37,014 nucleotides of DNA from positions 1 through 37,014 of IMG/VR virus record IMGVR_UViG_3300044846_000885. One strand, written 5' to 3'. Shown one piece after another: positions 2,686-34,859 of the stretch. Position 1 is the stretch's first letter. Each line of letters starts with the position of its first letter. The position numbers and the translations under genes are program-made. Under the pieces are notes generated by a model. That model was not told the origin of the DNA. It searched no databases and worked only from the letters and a program-made list of their open reading frames with translations. The DNA is from a virus.

Positions 2686-2965
2686 ATTCATTGAGGAGCA
2701 AACACAGGAGGCATTGTATTGCATATTGACCAACATCAGTACAGGCATTCCTAGATATGACGAGTTTACGCTGGTTGATGGGGTTGATGTTACATTCCCA
2801 TATGCTGGTTTTTACACATACAAGATATACCAACAGACAAGCTCATCCAATTTGGACCCTGCGCTATCTGATGGAATGGTGGAGGAGGGCCGTGCCCATG
2901 TTTATGAGATGGATAGTCCATCCAATTATTATGATTACAATGTAGCTAATTTCGTTTATGAGTAA
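2630..2965 (+). CDS. Small beta-rich structural protein before portal (phage A)
   Basis: The frame is open from an ATG at 2558, but the first ~24 residues overlap the previous gene and look like read-through of its Lys-rich 3' end. I prefer the TTG at 2630, giving MIVTVSELTTIPAPYYLFEF; ATGs at 2597 and 2558 are alternatives. The pattern YYLFEF-EE-T-EALY, RYDEFTL, FPYAGFYTYKIYQQ, SDGMVEEGRAHVYE is a recurring Bacteroidota phage family found just before the portal. Phage B has a diverged relative at 32756-33109. It is probably a minor head or neck protein; the exact role is unknown. It overlaps the portal start by 8 bases. Confidence 0.6.
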   Translation: MIVTVSELTTIPAPYYLFEFIEEQTQEALYCILTNISTGIPRYDEFTLVDGVDVTFPYAGFYTYKIYQQTSSSNLDPALSDGMVEEGRAHVYEMDSPSNYYDYNVANFVYE

Positions 2966-4967
2966 GGTATTGAACGTCCAATTTTCTAAGTCATTCACAG
3001 TTCCTGTGGAGGAGCTTGATAAGGGCCAAGGGTTTGTAAAGTGGGGAAAGAAAAATGACTATCCATTCTTTATCATTGATTTGCTACATGGCTCTGCTTG
3101 GCACCAGGGTATCATTAAAAACAAAAGCTACTATATTTCAGGCGGTGGCCTTGAGGTGGTGAGTGGAGATGCACAGCCATTCCTTAATAATGAGTTTAGG
3201 GATTTTGACATGAATGAGATAGCTCAAAGAATGACCTTTGATTTTGAGCTGTTTGGTGCCATGTGTGTTAAGGGTACTTGGAATAGAGAAGGTACTAGGG
3301 TCGTGGCATGGGAGCATCTGAACATTGATGCATGCAGGCTGTCTGAGGATGAGCGCACACTGTATGTATCAGATGATTGGAATGCCAGGAGACAAACACC
3401 TGAGGACACAAATTTCCGCACATATCCAGCCTTGGATGATAACAATCCACATGGTGCATTCTTTATATATTACAAGGAGCCAAGCAAACAAGCCAAGGGT
3501 GAAAAGGGAATATATCCAAAGCCTCCATATGTGGGTGGAATCACAGCAATACAGACAGATTGCGACATATCTCGCTGGCATATGTATGAAATTTCCAATG
3601 GGTTTAAAGCTGGCACCTTGATAAATCTGCCGGGAGGTTTTCCGGAGACAGCTGAGGAGGAGCGCAAAATAAAGGAGCAGATTAAGGGGCCTGTGCAATC
3701 CATTGAATCAGCTGGTGAAATAATAATCACATTCAGCCAAACCAAGGATGATGCACCATCTGTAATGCAGCTGTCGGGCAATGACCTTGATAAACGCTAT
3801 GAGATGACAGAGAGAGCTGTGCAGCAGAACATATTGGTAGCTCACAGCATCACAGCACCTACTTTGTTTGGTATCATTCAGCAGGGCTCATTCAATGCAG
3901 CGGAATCTGCTGATTTGTTTGAGATATTCAAGGTGACCTATGTGAGCTCAAGGCAAAAGCAAATAGAATGGATGATAAACTACATGGCCCAATTAAGTGG
4001 CTCATCTGCAATACTCAAGCTCGTTGATGTTACACCTATCGGAACTGTACCACAAGTTGATGCAGCCGCACCTGTAGCTGATGTGGCAGCGGACCCATTG
4101 GCAGCTGGAGAGATTGATGTTGCTAAAACAGCATTGAATGGTGCACAGATTGCATCAATTATTGATGTAGTGGCAGCCATCAAGGAGGGAGTATTAACAC
4201 CTGAGGCAGCGCTACAGGTACTATTGGCATCATTCCCTACCATTGCAGAGGCACAAGCTCGCGAGATAGTGGGATTGGACAGTGCAGGCATGGGTTTCTG
4301 TAACCACAAACAGCTGTTTTCGGACCAAAGCATTGAGCTATTTGAACAGCATGGCGAGCTCAAGGAGCAATTTGAGATAATTAAAAGCGTACCTGTGGAA
4401 TGGGATACACCATCTGAGGAGGTATTCAGCAGAGAACAGCAGCTATTTGATGAGATTGGTCAAATAATGGTGCAGCTTACTGACCTTGAGAAGGCTGTAT
4501 TGACCTTGCTACAGGAGGATGATGAGGAGGCAGGATCAATTGCCAAGGCAACAGGCGAGCCATTGCAGGTAATTGTTCAGGTGATTGAGAAATTAGTGAT
4601 TCTTGGCCTTTATGAAAAGCCATCTGTTGATGCTGAGGGTGTGCGTACAAGTGGAACAGTCACACCAACAGGTGGGCAGGTGGTGAATCAAATACCAGGA
4701 GCAGAGCAGCCACAGTATGAGATACGATACAGCTATGAAACGAGAAAGGATGTACCACCTGTAAAAACCAAATCAAGGAATTTCTGCCTGGCATTACTCA
4801 GATTGGATAGGCTATATTCCAGGGATGAGCTCTCCATGATTAGCTCACAGGAGGGCAGAGATGTTTGGAGATACAGAGGTGGATACTATACCAATCCGGA
4901 CACAGGTAAAACCACACCATGGTGCCGTCACATATGGATGCAGAATCTCGTAAAACGTAAACAATGA
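2958..4967 (+). CDS. Portal protein with extended C-terminus (phage A)
   Basis: A 669-residue portal, the dodecameric ring through which DNA enters and leaves the head. The core (about 1-350) matches the phage B portal at 33102 in layout: KKNDYPFFIIDLLHGS, then VQQNILVAHSITAPTLFGI, where phage B has GHNVTSPLLFGVSS. After an Ala-rich linker (about 365-440) come a winged-helix-like segment (LTDLEKAVLTLLQ through KLVILGLYE, about 510-555) and a Cys/His-containing end domain (NFCLALLRLDRLYSRDEL, WRYRGGYY, PWCRHIW) that phage B shares in altered form. The linker and helix segment make it 84 residues longer than the phage B copy. It overlaps the adaptor gene by 4 bases (ATGA). Confidence 0.85.
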   Translation: MSKVLNVQFSKSFTVPVEELDKGQGFVKWGKKNDYPFFIIDLLHGSAWHQGIIKNKSYYISGGGLEVVSGDAQPFLNNEFRDFDMNEIAQRMTFDFELFGAMCVKGTWNREGTRVVAWEHLNIDACRLSEDERTLYVSDDWNARRQTPEDTNFRTYPALDDNNPHGAFFIYYKEPSKQAKGEKGIYPKPPYVGGITAIQTDCDISRWHMYEISNGFKAGTLINLPGGFPETAEEERKIKEQIKGPVQSIESAGEIIITFSQTKDDAPSVMQLSGNDLDKRYEMTERAVQQNILVAHSITAPTLFGIIQQGSFNAAESADLFEIFKVTYVSSRQKQIEWMINYMAQLSGSSAILKLVDVTPIGTVPQVDAAAPVADVAADPLAAGEIDVAKTALNGAQIASIIDVVAAIKEGVLTPEAALQVLLASFPTIAEAQAREIVGLDSAGMGFCNHKQLFSDQSIELFEQHGELKEQFEIIKSVPVEWDTPSEEVFSREQQLFDEIGQIMVQLTDLEKAVLTLLQEDDEEAGSIAKATGEPLQVIVQVIEKLVILGLYEKPSVDAEGVRTSGTVTPTGGQVVNQIPGAEQPQYEIRYSYETRKDVPPVKTKSRNFCLALLRLDRLYSRDELSMISSQEGRDVWRYRGGYYTNPDTGKTTPWCRHIWMQNLVKRKQ

Positions 4968-10105: not shown

Positions 10106-10284
10106 AAACATACCATATAACATTTTACATATCCCGCGAGGTTGAAAGTGACACGGGGGTATTATTAAGCGGAATAAGCGTAGAAGCTGACAACGTGTTA
10201 GCGGCGGTTATGGCATATATGCACAGGATGGACGAAGAAAAATTACCAGTAGTAGAAGAAATCAAATATATTTTAGAAGTATGA
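10102..10284 (+). CDS. Hypothetical protein, 60 aa
   Basis: A small protein with an N-terminal strand (MKTYHITFYISREVE), a middle strand (SGISVEADNVLAAVMAYMH) and an acidic end. It is coupled by 4-base overlaps to both neighbours. I do not recognise it; the pattern resembles short alpha/beta phage proteins without assigned function. Confidence 0.6.
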   Translation: MKTYHITFYISREVESDTGVLLSGISVEADNVLAAVMAYMHRMDEEKLPVVEEIKYILEV

Positions 10285-10640
10285 AAACGATAGTAATAAC
10301 AGGATTAATTTTAAGCGCATTTTCAAGCGTTTTAACGACAGGTAAGGCAACTTACTACGGTCAACATTGGACAGGGCGTTTAACGGCGTCAGGTGAAAGA
10401 TTCCACGCGGATAGTTTAACGTGCGCTCACAAGACTTTGCCGTTCGGAACGTTACTCGAAGTAACCGACCTAAACACGAAACAAAAATTAACGGTAAAAG
10501 TTAACGACCGTTTGCCGAAAAGTTCGGGAGTTTTAATAGATTTGACTTACGGAACTGCAAAAAAGTTCGGGATGCTTAAAAAAGGCGTTATCAAAGTAAG
10601 TATTGAAAAAGTAGGAACACGTAAAATTTATAAGAAATGA
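10281..10640 (+). CDS. Exported RlpA-like double-psi beta-barrel protein
   Basis: A 119-residue protein with an N-terminal signal-like hydrophobic segment (MKTIVITGLILSAFSSVLTTG) followed at once by GKATYYGQHWTGRLTASGERF, THKTLPFGT-type (AHKTLPFGTLLEVTD), VKVNDRLP and IDLTYGTAKKFGM. This is the RlpA/DPBB core, which in bacteria binds or cleaves denuded glycan in the periplasm. The usual SPOR domain is absent. In this early unit it may remodel the host wall or help lysis. The Asp of VNDR, important in RlpA, is kept. Family sure, role inferred. Confidence 0.85.
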   Translation: MKTIVITGLILSAFSSVLTTGKATYYGQHWTGRLTASGERFHADSLTCAHKTLPFGTLLEVTDLNTKQKLTVKVNDRLPKSSGVLIDLTYGTAKKFGMLKKGVIKVSIEKVGTRKIYKK

Positions 10641-11015: not shown

Positions 11016-11100
11016 GGTGTGTAATTTGATTGCCACGCTCATAATAGGAATAGTAATAGGAATGATAATAGGATACGAGATATGGAACAACGAGAATTAA
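10993..11100 (+). CDS. Tiny membrane protein, 35 aa
   Basis: A 35-codon frame overlapping both neighbours, with a strongly hydrophobic centre (LIATLIIGIVIGMIIGYEIW) that should span the membrane once. GxxxG-like spacing (GIVIGMIIG) could allow dimer packing. It fills the 66-base gap between the larger genes. Support is moderate; function unknown. Confidence 0.45.
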   Translation: MDVQLISEVCNLIATLIIGIVIGMIIGYEIWNNEN

Positions 11101-11465
11101 TAGAGCACGTTAGAGAATTGATAGACAAGTACGACCTGAAAAACCCTTGTAGGCTTCAAAAGTACACCTATCCGCGTTATTATCTATTTGCGGTACTTAA
11201 ACAAAACGCTCGAATGCCTTGGGTAGAAATTGCGCGGATGTTTGAAAAGAACCATTCAACGGTAATTCACGGTTTAGATGTACACGATATGCTAACCAAA
11301 ACAAAGGACTTAGGATACAGGTACTTCACAGCGTCAATACGCGACGAAATCAAGTTACAAGAAAAAGACGAAGAAAGAGACATAGCAAAAGACGTCCTTT
11401 CGTGTAGAACTTACAACCAAATAAAACAATTACAACAAAAAATAAAAGACGGATATTATGATTAA
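11082..11465 (+). CDS. DnaA domain IV-like DNA-binding protein
   Basis: A 127-residue protein whose centre (about 31-75) reads YYLFAVLKQNARMPWVEIARMFEKNHSTVIHGLDVHDML. This matches the helix-turn-helix and signature helix of the DnaA C-terminal domain, where [RN]HSTV-H contacts the DnaA box. The AAA+ ATPase domain of DnaA is missing, so it cannot load helicase alone. It lies about 0.9 kb before the predicted initiator gene and could bind the phage origin, bind DnaA boxes as a competitor, or regulate early genes. Domain call fairly sure, role inferred. Confidence 0.75.
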   Translation: MEQRELIEHVRELIDKYDLKNPCRLQKYTYPRYYLFAVLKQNARMPWVEIARMFEKNHSTVIHGLDVHDMLTKTKDLGYRYFTASIRDEIKLQEKDEERDIAKDVLSCRTYNQIKQLQQKIKDGYYD

Positions 11466-11748
11466 GAGATTAGTAGAAAAAGAGCAACCCTTCCTAATAG
11501 TGGAAGAGAACGTTTACGACGAAATAACAGCGTTTTGCGTAGTGTATGAAGGTAGAGCATGGAACGGAAACTTTACCATACTACAAAAGCCAATAAAGAA
11601 GAAAGAACACTTCCAAGAATTTAGGCAATTTAAGCACCTATTCAAGGTTACGGACTTTCAAGGTGATGGACGCATTTACGATTTCAATAATTTTAAAAAC
11701 AATGTTGATAAAAGACTTAAAAATAATTTGGTTAAGTCGCTGAAATAG
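11458..11748 (+). CDS. Hypothetical protein, 96 aa
   Basis: A basic 96-residue protein (MIKRLVEKEQPFLIVEENVYDEITAFCVVYEGRAWNGNFTILQK...). It overlaps the preceding gene by 8 bases and is the last gene before the candidate RNA; the promoter of that RNA lies inside its 3' end. No family recognised. Confidence 0.6.
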   Translation: MIKRLVEKEQPFLIVEENVYDEITAFCVVYEGRAWNGNFTILQKPIKKKEHFQEFRQFKHLFKVTDFQGDGRIYDFNNFKNNVDKRLKNNLVKSLK

Positions 11749-11758
11749 TTGTATATTG
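11727..11758 (+). promoter_or_regulatory. Promoter for the candidate RNA and replication genes
   Basis: TTTG (11727-11730), a 21-base spacer, then TATATTG (11752-11758), one T short of TAnnTTTG. Transcription would start near 11764-11766, just at the first helix of the structured segment. Confidence 0.5.
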
Positions 11759-11764
11759 CGCATC

Positions 11765-11856
11765 GGTTCGCTTCCACATTATAGAACCTTAAAAAACTTA
11801 TTGACCTTGTTAATGAAGTAGACGTGGAAGCCTATGGATTTAGCAAGGTCTTTTTA
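11765..11856 (+). ncRNA. Candidate structured RNA with loop-loop pairing
   Basis: Non-coding stretch between the gene ending at 11748 and the start at 11872. Hairpin 1: GGTTC (11765-11769) with GAACC (11784-11788). Hairpin 2: GACCTTGTT (11803-11811) with AGCAAGGTC (11842-11850), 9 pairs including one G-U, followed by TTTTT. The loop of hairpin 1 holds GCTTCCAC (11770-11777), an exact complement of GTGGAAGC (11824-11831) in the loop of hairpin 2: eight pairs in a kissing or pseudoknot arrangement. A promoter sits right upstream and a T-run right after, so a ~90-nt RNA or a switchable leader for the replication genes is possible. I do not recognise a known class. Confidence 0.45.
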
Positions 11857-11871
11857 TTTAAATTATTTATT

Positions 11872-12063
11872 ATGATTATTTTTCAAACAAGGAACGAAAA
11901 AGGCGGCAGGTTAGAGTTATCATTTGATGAAATAGAAGGTCATATGTATATTGATTCTTATGATTTTAAAAACCAATTAGTCAATAGTGAAACCATTTAT
12001 GAGGAAGACATGAAAAAATTTCTTCAATTCATTAAAATTAATTGCGATGCAAGGATGGATTAA
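11872..12063 (+). CDS. Hypothetical protein, 63 aa
   Basis: A small acidic protein starting MIIFQTRNEKGGRLELSFDEIEGHMYID. I chose the ATG at 11872; a GTG at 11824 would put codons through the structured RNA and its T-run and gives an odd leader. It overlaps the initiator gene by 17 bases. No family recognised. Confidence 0.55.
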   Translation: MIIFQTRNEKGGRLELSFDEIEGHMYIDSYDFKNQLVNSETIYEEDMKKFLQFIKINCDARMD

Positions 12064-12709
12064 AATACATCGTAAGTTTTTAGACTGGCAATGGTTTAAT
12101 AAAAGCGAGGCGGTTCATTTGTTTGTTTATATGCTTTTAAAAGCGAATCATAAGGACTCACAATGGCAAGGTATTGAGGTTAAACGAGGTGAGTTTATTT
12201 CGTCTTTAGGTAAGATTTCAAGCGACACAAATATCAGTTCTCAGTCGATTAGAACGCTTCTAAAAAAGCTCGAAAACACGAACGAAATTATAGTAAAATC
12301 AACAAACAAATACACACAGATAACTATCTGTAAATATGACTGTTACCAATTGGATTTAGAAGATACTAACAAACAACTAACAAACAATCAACAAACAACT
12401 AACAATCAACTAACAACAAACAAGAATGATAAGAATAAAAAGAATGAAAATAATATACCTGAAATCGAGGATTTTGTGGCTTATGCTTTAGAGCAATTCC
12501 CAAAGGTAGAAGAAGACGAAGTAAGATTGAAATACAAAAGTTGGTTAGTCAATGGTTGGTGTACTAATAGGGATAATAAACTACGACCAATTAAGAACTG
12601 GAAATCAACTTTACTAAACACCCTTCCGTACATGAAGGAAACAGTTATAACTTCGGACGACCGTTTAGTAGCCCACATTAAAAAAACACTTAATCTTAAA
12701 CACCTATGA
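12047..12709 (+). CDS. Replication initiator-like protein (winged helix, O/DnaD type)
   Basis: A 220-residue protein. Residues ~1-100 form a winged-helix domain as in phage replication proteins: GWIKIHRKFLDWQWF, EAVHLFVYMLLKANHK, VKRGEFISSLGKISSDTNISSQSIRTLLKKLENTNEI. Then follow an Asn/Thr/Gln/Lys-rich linker (about 105-138) and a C-terminal part (EDFVAYALEQF..., LRPIKNWKSTLLNTLPYM) resembling helicase-loader regions. It is followed by a helicase-like ATPase (4-base overlap), the layout of lambda O/P and DnaD/DnaB modules. The linker DNA contains direct repeats, see the iteron entry. It should open the origin and recruit helicase. Confidence 0.75.
   Translation: MQGWIKIHRKFLDWQWFNKSEAVHLFVYMLLKANHKDSQWQGIEVKRGEFISSLGKISSDTNISSQSIRTLLKKLENTNEIIVKSTNKYTQITICKYDCYQLDLEDTNKQLTNNQQTTNNQLTTNKNDKNKKNENNIPEIEDFVAYALEQFPKVEEDEVRLKYKSWLVNGWCTNRDNKLRPIKNWKSTLLNTLPYMKETVITSDDRLVAHIKKTLNLKHL
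12365..12419 (+). repeat. Five 11-bp tandem iterons, probable replication origin
   Basis: Five head-to-tail units at 12365, 12376, 12387, 12398 and 12409 with consensus ACTAACAAACA: two perfect, the others with one or two changes (ATCAACAAACA, ACTAACAATCA, ACTAACAACAA). Eleven is not a multiple of three, so each unit is read in a new frame; the period is kept in the DNA and not in the protein. About one helix turn per unit puts binding sites on one face. It lies inside the initiator gene, as in lambda ori within gene O. Confidence 0.6.
12422..12457 (+). other. AT-rich 9-mer array, possible unwinding element
   Basis: Directly after the iterons, four 9-base units (AAGAATGAT, AAGAATAAA, AAGAATGAA, AATAATATA) with only five G and no C in 36 bases. 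These are codon-phased (Lys-Asn-rich), so protein repetition is another explanation. Next to iterons, such a tract fits the strand-opening element of an origin. Confidence 0.45.
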
Positions 12710-16651: not shown

Positions 16652-17182
16652 ATGCAATGGATTAACGTACTATCAAAGCATCACAAGGAATGGATTAACA
16701 TTGTCCGTTCGTTTGGAGAGTGTCCTTTAGCTGAAGACATTGTACAGGAAATGTACCTTCGCATTCACGACGCCAATTCGGGTGAAAAAGCGGTAATAAA
16801 CGACGAGCCGAACCGCGCTTTCGTGTGGGTAATTCTCAAAAATACGTTCATAACTTACGAGAAAGAGAAAACCAGGATTCAAAAGGTTTCGATTGACGAA
16901 CTTAACTACCTTTGCATCGAGGAAAGCGAACCACAAAAACACGAAGCGATTAGTAAAATAGACCAAAAGCTACAAAACGAGTTATCTAAATGGCATACTT
17001 ACGACCGTGAACTATTCAAAGTGCATACCTTAAAGGGTAAATCAATGCGTGAAATAAGCAACGGTGCGAACATAAGCCTATCGAGTATATTTAACACGCT
17101 TAAAAACTGCAAAACACGGCTTAAACAAAAGATAGGAGAGGATTATTTAGACTATAAAAACCAAGAATATGAGAGGATTTAA
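16652..17182 (+). CDS. Phage RNA polymerase sigma factor (ECF-like)
   Basis: A 176-residue protein with the two conserved regions of small sigma-70 factors: region 2 at about 12-60 (CPLAEDIVQEMYLRIHDAN, then RAFVWVILKNTFITYEKEK) and region 4 at about 115-160 (DRELFKVHTLKGKSMREISNGANISLSSIFNTLKNCKTRLKQKI), the second containing the -35-type helix-turn-helix. Sitting alone between a terminator and the packaging genes, it is the natural candidate to redirect host RNA polymerase to late promoters. No late consensus could be fixed by eye. Family fairly sure. Confidence 0.78.
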   Translation: MQWINVLSKHHKEWINIVRSFGECPLAEDIVQEMYLRIHDANSGEKAVINDEPNRAFVWVILKNTFITYEKEKTRIQKVSIDELNYLCIEESEPQKHEAISKIDQKLQNELSKWHTYDRELFKVHTLKGKSMREISNGANISLSSIFNTLKNCKTRLKQKIGEDYLDYKNQEYERI

Positions 17183-18107: not shown

Positions 18108-19256
18108 ATGCAAGTAGTAAAAATAACACAAGTAAAACCTAATCCGAAAAACCCAAGGATAATAAAAGACGGAAAGTTTAAGAAGTTAGTACAATCTATT
18201 CAAGACTTCCCTGATATGTTGAATAAACGCCCGTTAGTTGTGTTTACTGATGTGGATAATAAATACATTGTGTTGGGTGGTAATATGCGTTTAAAAGCGT
18301 GCAAAGAGATAGGATTAAAAGAAATACCTATTATAGTAGCAGACGAATGGACGGAGGAACAAAAAAACGAATTCTTAATTAAAGATAACGTTGGCTTTGG
18401 AGAATGGGATTGGGATAGTTTAGCGAATGAATGGGACACCGAAAAATTAGAGGATTGGGGGCTTGATTTACCGATTGATTTAACAGTTGAAGAACTCGAA
18501 GCCGAAGAGGATGATTACGAAATACCTAACGAGATAAACACGGACATAATAATAGGAGACTTATTTGAAATAGGAGAACATCGTTTACTTTGTGGAGATA
18601 GTACGGATAGCGATTTAATAGAAAAACTATTAAACGGTAGCAAACCAGAGTTATTATTGACAGACCCTCCCTATGGAATTGATTATGGTGGAATGTTAAA
18701 AGGAAAAGGAGACGGTAAAGGTGGTGCAGATAAAAATGGATGGAAATCTTATGACGCACCTGATTGGGATAAATCAAAACCTGAAAGCGGAGTATTGCAA
18801 TATCTTTGTCAAATAACGGACAATCAAATAATATGGGGTGGAAATTATTTTACAGATGATTTACCTCCTACAATGGGATGGCTTATTTGGGATAAAGGAC
18901 AAAGAGGATTCAGTTTAGCAGATGGAGAGATGGCTTGGACTTCTTTTAACAATGCTCTAAGGATAAAAGAATACGCAAGAGCAAAAGCAAACCGAGAGGA
19001 AAAAAATCACCCAACACAAAAGCCCATTGAAATAATGAGCTGGTGTTTTGAATATGCGGATAGACATTCTAAAAAAGAAATCAAATTAGTTTTAGATGCT
19101 TATTTAGGTTCAGGTTCAACAATGGTAGCATCACACCAACTTAAACGCAAATGTTACGGTATGGAATTAGACCCGAAGTATTGCCAAGTAATAATTGACC
19201 GAATGAGAAAACTTGACCCGAGTTTAGTGATTAAGAAGAACGGAGTTACAATGTAA
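18108..19256 (+). CDS. ParB-domain / beta-class N4- or N6-DNA methyltransferase
   Basis: A 382-residue fusion. Residues ~1-110 are a ParB/Srx-like domain (PNPKNPR, VLGGNMRLKACKEIGLKEIPIIV, FLIKDNVGFGEWDWD). Residues ~145-370 are an amino-methyltransferase with TDPPYG (185-190) before the target domain and the SAM-binding VLDAYLGSGSTM (about 328-339) at the C-terminus, i.e. the beta order. DPPY fits adenine-N6 or cytosine-N4 methylation. The target site is unknown; GATC is absent from the phage, so that site need not be its target. Such enzymes protect phage DNA or mark it for packaging; it lies directly before the terminase genes. Confidence 0.88.
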   Translation: MQVVKITQVKPNPKNPRIIKDGKFKKLVQSIQDFPDMLNKRPLVVFTDVDNKYIVLGGNMRLKACKEIGLKEIPIIVADEWTEEQKNEFLIKDNVGFGEWDWDSLANEWDTEKLEDWGLDLPIDLTVEELEAEEDDYEIPNEINTDIIIGDLFEIGEHRLLCGDSTDSDLIEKLLNGSKPELLLTDPPYGIDYGGMLKGKGDGKGGADKNGWKSYDAPDWDKSKPESGVLQYLCQITDNQIIWGGNYFTDDLPPTMGWLIWDKGQRGFSLADGEMAWTSFNNALRIKEYARAKANREEKNHPTQKPIEIMSWCFEYADRHSKKEIKLVLDAYLGSGSTMVASHQLKRKCYGMELDPKYCQVIIDRMRKLDPSLVIKKNGVTM

Positions 19257-32755: not shown

Positions 32756-33109
32756 ATGCAAGTAATAACACCTATTGCCGCACAGAAAACACTTAGTATC
32801 GTTCCGAGATACGAAAACGCGGACGCTTGTATATTTCGAGATGACCAAACAAACACCGAACAGACATTTGCGATAGTATCATTTACCGAATTAGAGTACT
32901 ACTTTGAGCTTGTAATCGACGTCGATGTCGACTTAATCGAAAACCATTGGTACGATATGTTCCTATTTGATGGGGCTGTAATGACCTTTTACGACAAGGT
33001 ATTTGTAACGTCTCAGAACTTAGACACGTTTAGCGTGAATAATTACCCAAATAACACGTCGCAGTACATCCCAAATGTGACACAAAACACGTACATAACC
33101 TATGAATAA
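32756..33109 (+). CDS. Small beta-rich structural protein before portal (phage B)
   Basis: A 117-residue acidic protein (MQVITPIAAQKTLSIVPRYENADACIFRDDQTNTEQTF...), in the same place as the phage A gene at 2630 and with the same FxLFDGAV--FYDKVFVTSQ-like layout, though much diverged. It overlaps the portal start by 8 bases, as in phage A. Probably a minor head or neck protein; the exact role is unknown. Confidence 0.6.
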   Translation: MQVITPIAAQKTLSIVPRYENADACIFRDDQTNTEQTFAIVSFTELEYYFELVIDVDVDLIENHWYDMFLFDGAVMTFYDKVFVTSQNLDTFSVNNYPNNTSQYIPNVTQNTYITYE

Positions 33110-34859
33110 CGTTCACTTTGTTGATTTAGCGAAATACGAAACGCCTTCCATACACGAAAGTAGCCGTGAAAATTGGGTTAGTTATGGGGAAAACGATGAT
33201 TACTTCCAATATCTGATAGACAGGTACACTTACAGCCCTACAAATAACGCGATTATAAACAACATAGCGAAGTTAATTTACGGACGTGGACTGAATGCTT
33301 TAGACGCTTCAAGAAAGCCCGCTGAATACGCTCAAATGCGCGTCCTATTTAACAAAGATTGCATTCGTAAAGTTATCATGGATGCAAAGATGTTAGGACA
33401 ATTTGCGTTTCAAGTAATCTACTCTAAGGATAGAAAGCGAATCGATAAGGCATACCACATTCCCGTACACCTTTTACGCCCTGAAAAGTGCAATGCTGAC
33501 GGTGAAATAGAAGCGTATTATTACTCGGACAATTGGACGGATACTAAAAAGTTCCCGCCTAAAAGAATTCCGTCTTTCGGTACGTCAAAAGAAGATATTG
33601 AAATACTTTACGTTCGTCCTTATTCGGTAGGATTAAAATATTTTAGTTTAGTGGATTACCAAGGTGCGCTTCCGTATGCCGTTTTGGAGGAAGAAATAGC
33701 CGACTATTTAATTAACGAGGTTCAAAATGGATTCAGCGGAACGAAGATAATTAACTTTAATAACGGAATCCCTACCGATGAGCAGATGAGCGACACCGAA
33801 AGGCTCGTTAAAAACAAGTTGACAGGCTCAAAGGGTGAACGTGTAATCATTTCATTTAACAACAATAGAGACCAAGCTACAGAAGTTGTAGACATACCGC
33901 TAAACGACGCACCACAGCATTACGAATATCTTTCCGACGAGTGCATGAGAAAAATCATGCTCGGACATAACGTAACTTCGCCTTTACTTTTTGGGGTATC
34001 AAGTTCCAACGGATTTTCAAGCAATGCGGACGAATTAAAGAATTCTTTTGTGCTTTATTACAACATGGTTGTGCGTCCATATCAAGAACTTATTTTGGAT
34101 GCCTTAGATACGATTTTAGCGTACAATCAAATCAGTTTGAAACTATATTTCGAGACTTTAAAACCGCTCGAATTTATGGACGCAAGCGGAAAGGTCGAAG
34201 AGGAAGTAGCGCTAAGCGCGGTAAATGAATTACAAAGCATTTTAGACGAGGTAGACCGCAATCAATTGAGCGACGAATGGGTGGTAGTTGACGAGCGCGA
34301 AGTAGGAGAGAACGAGGACGAATTAGACGAAGCACTTTTAAACGCCGAAACTGAATTCGAGCCTAAGGTTAGTTTGCTTAGTAAGTTGGTTAACTTGGTT
34401 CAAACGGGTAACCCTATGCCGAACTTAAAGAGTTCACAGGATAGGAAGGTAGGAGATTTGAAGTACTTTAAAGTGCGCTACAAATACACGGGCAACCCTC
34501 AACCCGAAAGAGACTTTTGTGCGGCGATGATGTCGAATACTGATAGGCTTTTCAGAAAGGAAGACATCGACATGATGAGTAATCGAGCGGTAAACCCTGG
34601 TTTTGGGGAAGGTGGCGCAAATACTTATGACATTTTTAGGTTTAAAGGCGGTCCGCGATGTCATCACAAATGGGCGCGGGTTACTTTTATGCTTGACTTG
34701 AATAAAATCGAGGAAGGATATAAAGAGATAGGGACGAGAGCGGCGGAAATTAAAGGCTACAAAGTAACGAATCCTTACGAGGTTAGCATTTACCCTAACA
34801 ACCTACCTAAAAAAGGATTTAGCCCACGAAATAAGAACCTACCAAGAGACGCGAGATAA
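33102..34859 (+). CDS. Portal protein (phage B)
   Basis: A 585-residue portal: SRENWVSYGENDDYFQYLIDRYTYSPTNNAIINNIAKLIYGRGL at the start, the stem-crown region around CMRKIMLGHNVTSPLLFGVSSSNGFSSNADELKNSF, and an acidic segment (about 370-420). The C-terminal domain (FCAAMMSNTDRLFRKEDIDMMS, YDIFRFKGGPRCHHKWARVTF) with CHHKW corresponds to the Cys/His end domain of phage A. Twelve copies form the DNA channel, the dock for TerL and the adaptor. Overlaps: 8 bases before, 1 base after. Confidence 0.87.
   Translation: MNNVHFVDLAKYETPSIHESSRENWVSYGENDDYFQYLIDRYTYSPTNNAIINNIAKLIYGRGLNALDASRKPAEYAQMRVLFNKDCIRKVIMDAKMLGQFAFQVIYSKDRKRIDKAYHIPVHLLRPEKCNADGEIEAYYYSDNWTDTKKFPPKRIPSFGTSKEDIEILYVRPYSVGLKYFSLVDYQGALPYAVLEEEIADYLINEVQNGFSGTKIINFNNGIPTDEQMSDTERLVKNKLTGSKGERVIISFNNNRDQATEVVDIPLNDAPQHYEYLSDECMRKIMLGHNVTSPLLFGVSSSNGFSSNADELKNSFVLYYNMVVRPYQELILDALDTILAYNQISLKLYFETLKPLEFMDASGKVEEEVALSAVNELQSILDEVDRNQLSDEWVVVDEREVGENEDELDEALLNAETEFEPKVSLLSKLVNLVQTGNPMPNLKSSQDRKVGDLKYFKVRYKYTGNPQPERDFCAAMMSNTDRLFRKEDIDMMSNRAVNPGFGEGGANTYDIFRFKGGPRCHHKWARVTFMLDLNKIEEGYKEIGTRAAEIKGYKVTNPYEVSIYPNNLPKKGFSPRNKNLPRDAR

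Follow-up and report, generated by a model that had tools for sequence, protein, structure and literature searches.

The 123-nt gap between the ORF ending at 11748 and the ORF starting at 11872 of the window analyzed here, a 37-kb IMG/VR virus record, holds an RNA element that is, to judge from comparison of its relatives, almost certainly a conserved pseudoknotted RNA, both in its fold and as a family. We propose, with moderate confidence, that this element is a leader or attenuator of the replication operon that also releases an RNA of ~93 nt. The proposal draws on what can be read in the DNA, namely the fold and its conservation, the promoter box, the terminator, the position of the element and the apparent lack of room for any other promoter.

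All parts of the element lie on the plus strand. A -7 promoter box, TATATTGC (11752-11759), is followed by a predicted RNA spanning ~11764-11856, or ~93 nt. The RNA opens with hairpin P1, a covarying 5-bp stem (GGTTC/GAACC, 11765-11769 with 11784-11788), whose loop contains K1, GCTTCCAC (11770-11777), the first strand of an 8-bp loop-loop helix, and ATTATA (11778-11783), a conserved unpaired stretch identical in 76 of the 85 distinct elements. A single-stranded, A-rich linker of 14 nt (11789-11802; 9-16 nt in nearly all relatives) leads to hairpin P2, the terminator stem (11803-11814 with 11839-11850; 11 bp plus one U-U), which carries a 3x3 internal loop (11815-11817/11836-11838; GAA/GGA in 63 of 85 elements) and P2a, a 4-bp apical stem supported by covariation (11818-11821 with 11832-11835). 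The second loop-loop strand, K2 (GTGGAAGC, 11824-11831), is the complement of K1 and lies inside the terminator loop, and a T-run, TTTTT (11851-11855), completes the intrinsic terminator. An earlier, sequence-only reading had described two hairpins of 5 and 9 pairs with exactly complementary 8-mers in their loops and TTTTT directly behind them. The complementary loops were confirmed, each 8-mer being unique in the window, and so was the T-run, which is conserved in relatives; P1 indeed has 5 bp, and P2 proved longer than described, with 11 bp, a U-U and the 4 bp of P2a.

The same reading held this arrangement to be unlikely by chance, which was too strong a statement from one sequence: when the 123-nt gap was shuffled with its dinucleotides preserved, 8.6% of the shuffles had an inverted 8-mer pair at a distance of 30-80 nt. 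Nested folding of the stretch, with the pseudoknot left out, was no better than that of shuffles (z -0.26). The case from the single sequence is moderate, and it is covariation among relatives that, in our judgment, settles the reality of the element.

Relatives were initially sought by fetching 36 loci with two neighbouring proteins, and most of these loci carry a homologous element whose K1 and K2 are unlike those of the window yet mutually matched. In an alignment of 22 elements, made with MAFFT from sequence only, 95.6% of cells were paired, compared with 69.7% in shuffles and at most 46% when the alignment was slid; the covariation score was 0.742 against 0.226, and double changes were seen in 22 of 29 pairs, distributed over P1, K, P2a and P2 (P2, 93% paired, 9 of 12 pairs double-changed; P2a, 100% paired, 3 of 4). 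A covariance model built from the nested helices alone, with K left out, was used together with DNA-pattern scans and yielded ~120 elements on viral contigs in IMG/VR, with almost no model matches at pattern loci lacking the element; the weak matches L134, L152, L172 and L130:11581 were left out of membership. In a further alignment, of 38 distinct sequences, K was paired in 304 of 304 cells, with 6 of 8 pairs double-changed, double changes in 112 cells and no one-sided change, so that a search for uncompensated variation of the 8-mers, which the sequence-only reading had named as the observation that would count against it, came out in its favour. P1 was paired in 99.5% of cells of the same alignment, with double changes in all 5 pairs. 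The candidate structured RNA with an 8-bp loop-loop interaction is thus strongly supported by covariation.

The helix K is highly diverse among the relatives, in which ~35-40 different pairs of loop 8-mers were counted. Of 90 elements that were parsed, 89 have a K1 that matches its own K2 at 7-8 of 8 positions, the parse being wrong for a few diverged copies, whereas complete pairing with a non-cognate partner from a different K is seen in 1% of cases. K contains hardly any GU pairs, its AC/GT end is nearly fixed, the two bases before K2 are AA or AG in 73 of 85 elements, and the spacing between K1 and K2 is nearly constant at 52-58 nt.

A box of the TAnnTTTG type heads nearly all relatives, reading TATATTTG in 70 of 85 elements and TATATTGC in 5 of 85. 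The promoter suggested earlier consisted of this box and an upstream TTTG; the box is real and conserved as TATATTTG, and the upstream TTTG is not conserved in relatives. In Flavobacterium psychrophilum, TAnnTTTG and TAnnTTGY (SM5) boxes have been mapped at -12 to -5, and TATATTGC fits the TAnnTTGY form (PMC9723704). By this spacing, transcription would begin at about 11764, immediately 5' of P1, and the predicted +1 falls 0-2 nt 5' of P1 in 75 of 82 elements. Conserved -7 boxes occur before P1 only, and comparison of the relatives revealed neither a conserved -33 box nor, on the opposite strand within 150 nt, a conserved -7 box. An internal promoter 5' of the downstream gene was considered and rejected, as merely scattered boxes were seen there, mostly derived from the P2 arm. 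The window also encodes a sigma-factor-like protein (16652-17182; phrog_1740, E 3.4e-7), and the phage with this gene has a leader promoter of the TAnnTTGC form, not TATATTTG; a link between the two is possible.

The gene order in the window places the element within a replication region. A gene for a protein with a DnaA C-terminal helix-turn-helix (11082-11465, plus strand; PF08299, E 1.8e-7), which as cluster c2 is a common upstream neighbour among relatives, is followed by a 96-aa ORF, the RNA, a 63-aa ORF immediately 3' of it (11872-12063, plus strand), a DnaD-like helicase loader or replication initiator (12047-12709, plus strand; phrog_2514, E 2.5e-30) and a helicase, and then by a 99-aa gene, a NinG gene and a gene for an Erf-like annealing protein. 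Elsewhere in the window, two ORFs ~30 kb apart (2958-4967 and 33102-34859) both match the portal-protein families phrog_11226 and phrog_33693, and a ParB-like nuclease domain is fused to a DNA methyltransferase at 18108-19256 (phrog_498, E 4.1e-72; phrog_8071). A 119-aa protein with a signal-like N terminus is encoded at 10281-10640, and we presume that it resembles RlpA-type double-psi beta-barrel proteins.

The start codon of the 63-aa ORF lies 16 nt past the T-run, and comparison of relatives revealed no conserved promoter box between the two. Such close spacing is general, the start codon being 7-27 nt past the T-run in 78 of 85 elements, which is too close for a separate promoter; as -7 boxes are conserved only before P1, the downstream gene most likely depends on read-through. 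This placement, together with the terminator within the fold, fits the earlier suggestion of a ~90-nt RNA or a leader into the replication genes. Gene context was counted for 65 distinct elements whose discovery relied on the RNA pattern or model and not on a protein. The initiator cluster is the first or second downstream gene in 47 of these and lies within five genes in 2 more; another 8 run off the contig, and 8 are without the initiator cluster, some of which, from a reading of translations, look to have another initiator-like or primase-like gene. The first downstream genes fall in several unrelated clusters, mostly of the small ORF or the initiator. Exceptions to this placement are an annotated antirepressor 3' of the element in Tenacibaculum phage Gundel_1 and HNH genes in other phages. 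Genes for HNH-like endonucleases, as read from translations, stand directly 3' of the RNAs at L153:4979-5084, L174:615-722, L179:2629-2736, L231:6887-6990 and L030:548-650; their presence right behind the RNA in several relatives suggests a leader common to whatever gene inserts there.

The carriers are phages of Bacteroidota with flavobacteria-like hosts. At the nucleotide level the window matched no isolated phage, and two isolated phages carry the element itself. In Gundel_1 (MT732474) it lies at 33891-34001, and a diverged second copy with a 9-bp K (16794-16893) is directly 5' of an initiator-like gene. In Cellulophaga phage phi18:3 (KC821620) it lies on the minus strand at 3183-3074, has CTTCTGAC/GTCAGAAG as K, and precedes gp007 and the DnaD-like gp006. 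Bacteroides phage B124-14 gave no model match. Under strict filters, applied without a positive control genome, searches of 296 bacterial genomes from one family and 395 from one phylum found no copy. A genome scan yielded 16 pattern matches, of which at most one matched the model, and that weakly (L172, E 0.77). Two diverged leader-like elements were also seen, at L130:11581-11678 (minus strand) and L243:1501-1600 (plus strand), with loop pairs recognized by eye, GGTCAG/CTGACC in the former and the 9-bp GTAGGATTC/GAATCCTAC in the latter; both precede genes and have TAnnTTTG boxes and terminators, without ATTATA, and may point to a broader class of terminator leaders with paired loops.

To follow the turnover of K, changes were counted on a tree built from non-K columns. 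Per variable position there were ~11-23 changes in K, mostly 4-12 in P1, 0-7 in ATTATA and 15-27 in the start-site spacer; K changes about as often as unconstrained bases, and much of the other unpaired RNA is frozen. Elements that share 87 of 87 bases outside K, and whose upstream flanks are ~85% identical, differ at 2 of 8 K pairs, and Gundel_1 and contig L114 each bear two copies with differing K's. On this comparison, K is free in sequence and strictly matched, a pattern that a structural helix free of sequence contacts and an address rewritten by selection would produce equally well; the close-pair events, ~3 of them independent, are too few to separate the two. Covariation likewise fits pairing in cis and pairing between copies and cannot tell one from the other.

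In the leader model, transcription would start at P1 and the nascent RNA would fold P1, after which K1 in the P1 loop would pair with K2 as it emerges in the terminator loop; the result would be a compact pseudoknot with an intrinsic terminator at its 3' end. Transcription would mostly stop there, with release of the RNA, and the initiator and helicase genes would be expressed only from read-through transcripts. The K helix would most likely assist or time the folding of the terminator, so that read-through, and hence the dose of initiator, may depend on the availability of K1 and K2 for pairing. Transcription, termination, pairing in cis, the sign of the effect of K and any trigger are what we infer here. 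Speaking against the model are the elements that precede genes other than the initiator and the lack, on inspection of the alignments, of an alternative pairing like the antiterminators of classical attenuators; moreover, conservation of ATTATA and GAA/GGA is stricter than a plain terminator needs, so that the RNA product may have a job of its own, and upstream transcripts that pass the terminator may also reach the operon.

That the ~93-nt terminated product is a stable small RNA acting in trans on another RNA or protein, with read-through incidental, is a possibility that we take seriously without thinking it likely. Its own predicted promoter and terminator, the 5' end at P1, the heavily conserved unpaired bases (ATTATA in 76 of 85, GAA/GGA in 63 of 85) and the occurrence of two-copy phages (Gundel_1, L114) would suit such an RNA, but the remainder of these contigs shows no enrichment of the K 8-mers (15 matches versus 10 for reversed 8-mers), and the constant short distance to the start codon and the recurrent place before the initiator suggest a role in cis. 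We think it unlikely that K1 of one molecule recognizes K2 of another, whether in dimers and oligomers or by the action of released RNA on nascent leaders. A spacing of 52-58 nt between K1 and K2 is as expected for pairing in cis, although common descent could explain it, and independent close-pair events are few (~3); the turnover of K at the rate of unconstrained bases, the pairs of elements that differ in K alone and the different K's of two copies in one phage are nonetheless consistent with such recognition, and the covarying kissing loops of GOLLD and ROOL are intermolecular (PMC12286853). Slightly more doubtful still is a self-addressed switch, in which the released RNA would pair, via K1 and K2, with leaders still being transcribed from the same phage and alter their read-through, so that initiator output would fall as copies accumulate and K would serve as a phage-specific address. 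If this were true, the address would prevent interference between relatives that co-infect a cell or between two copies within a phage.

We give little credence to a unit like type III toxin-antitoxin systems or AbiF, in which excess RNA binds the protein encoded just 3': the layout of promoter, structured RNA, terminator and promoterless gene is the same (PMC12373285), but the first downstream genes come from several unrelated clusters, tandem RNA repeats are lacking, and neither abiF RNA nor any other Rfam family was matched. An inverted repeat acting at the DNA level, as an operator pair for a protein of phage-varying specificity, would accommodate inverted copies of K1 and K2 that vary together ~five helical turns apart; it is hardly tenable, given that the K's sit within nested hairpins, P1, P2a and P2, which themselves covary and end in a terminator.

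The element represents an undescribed, strongly supported RNA family before replication genes, in Bacteroidota phages whose gene control is little known. That one 8-bp contact has been rewritten ~35-40 times and stayed intact is seldom met in nature and provides ready-made orthogonal pairs for experiments. As two isolated phages with cultured hosts carry the element, Gundel_1 with Tenacibaculum sp. AHE14PA and phi18:3 with Cellulophaga baltica #18, its mechanism is directly testable.

Searches of Rfam 15 gave no match for the whole window at the gathering threshold, nothing plausible for 11600-12000 at E up to 5, and none for three diverged relatives at E up to 0.5, and no description of this RNA was found in the open-access literature. 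The element is a new RNA family, of the kind of a terminator-containing leader RNA whose terminator loop joins a pseudoknot. As predicted from sequence, a terminator lies between promoter and gene with no other promoter, as in intrinsic attenuators; inspection of the alignments revealed no alternative antiterminator pairing of the classical kind. The putRNA of phage HK022, a phage RNA of ~70 nt, acts in cis on RNA polymerase and has two stem-loops close to the 5' end of early transcripts (PMC9378689), much as the two hairpins of the element lie near its predicted start. The put RNA makes polymerase ignore later terminators; unlike the element, it has no terminator inside its fold and is not reported to have covarying loop pairing of the K type (PMC9378689); its host belongs to a different phylum, and no Rfam match links the two. 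In type III toxin-antitoxin systems and the phage-encoded AbiF, the order of promoter, RNA, terminator and gene without a second promoter gives abundant RNA and limited read-through (PMC12373285). Their RNAs, including abiF RNA (RF03085), share with the element the layout, predicted in its case, of promoter, structured RNA, intrinsic terminator and read-through gene, whereas the element is a single unit without tandem repeats, a toxin gene 3' or an Rfam match. Copy control of the ColE1 type was rejected because the opposite strand has no conserved -7 box within 150 nt. In ColE1, diverging loop sequences of RNAI and RNAII give orthogonal replication control (PMC9458437), and the loops of the element diverge similarly; however, RNAI and RNAII are an antisense pair from opposite strands, and the element has both loops in one RNA and no conserved antisense box. 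GOLLD and ROOL, at several hundred nt, form RNA cages and are unrelated by Rfam search to our element of ~93 nt, but they resemble it as structured phage or bacterial RNAs with covarying kissing loops, which in their case proved to be intermolecular (PMC12286853).
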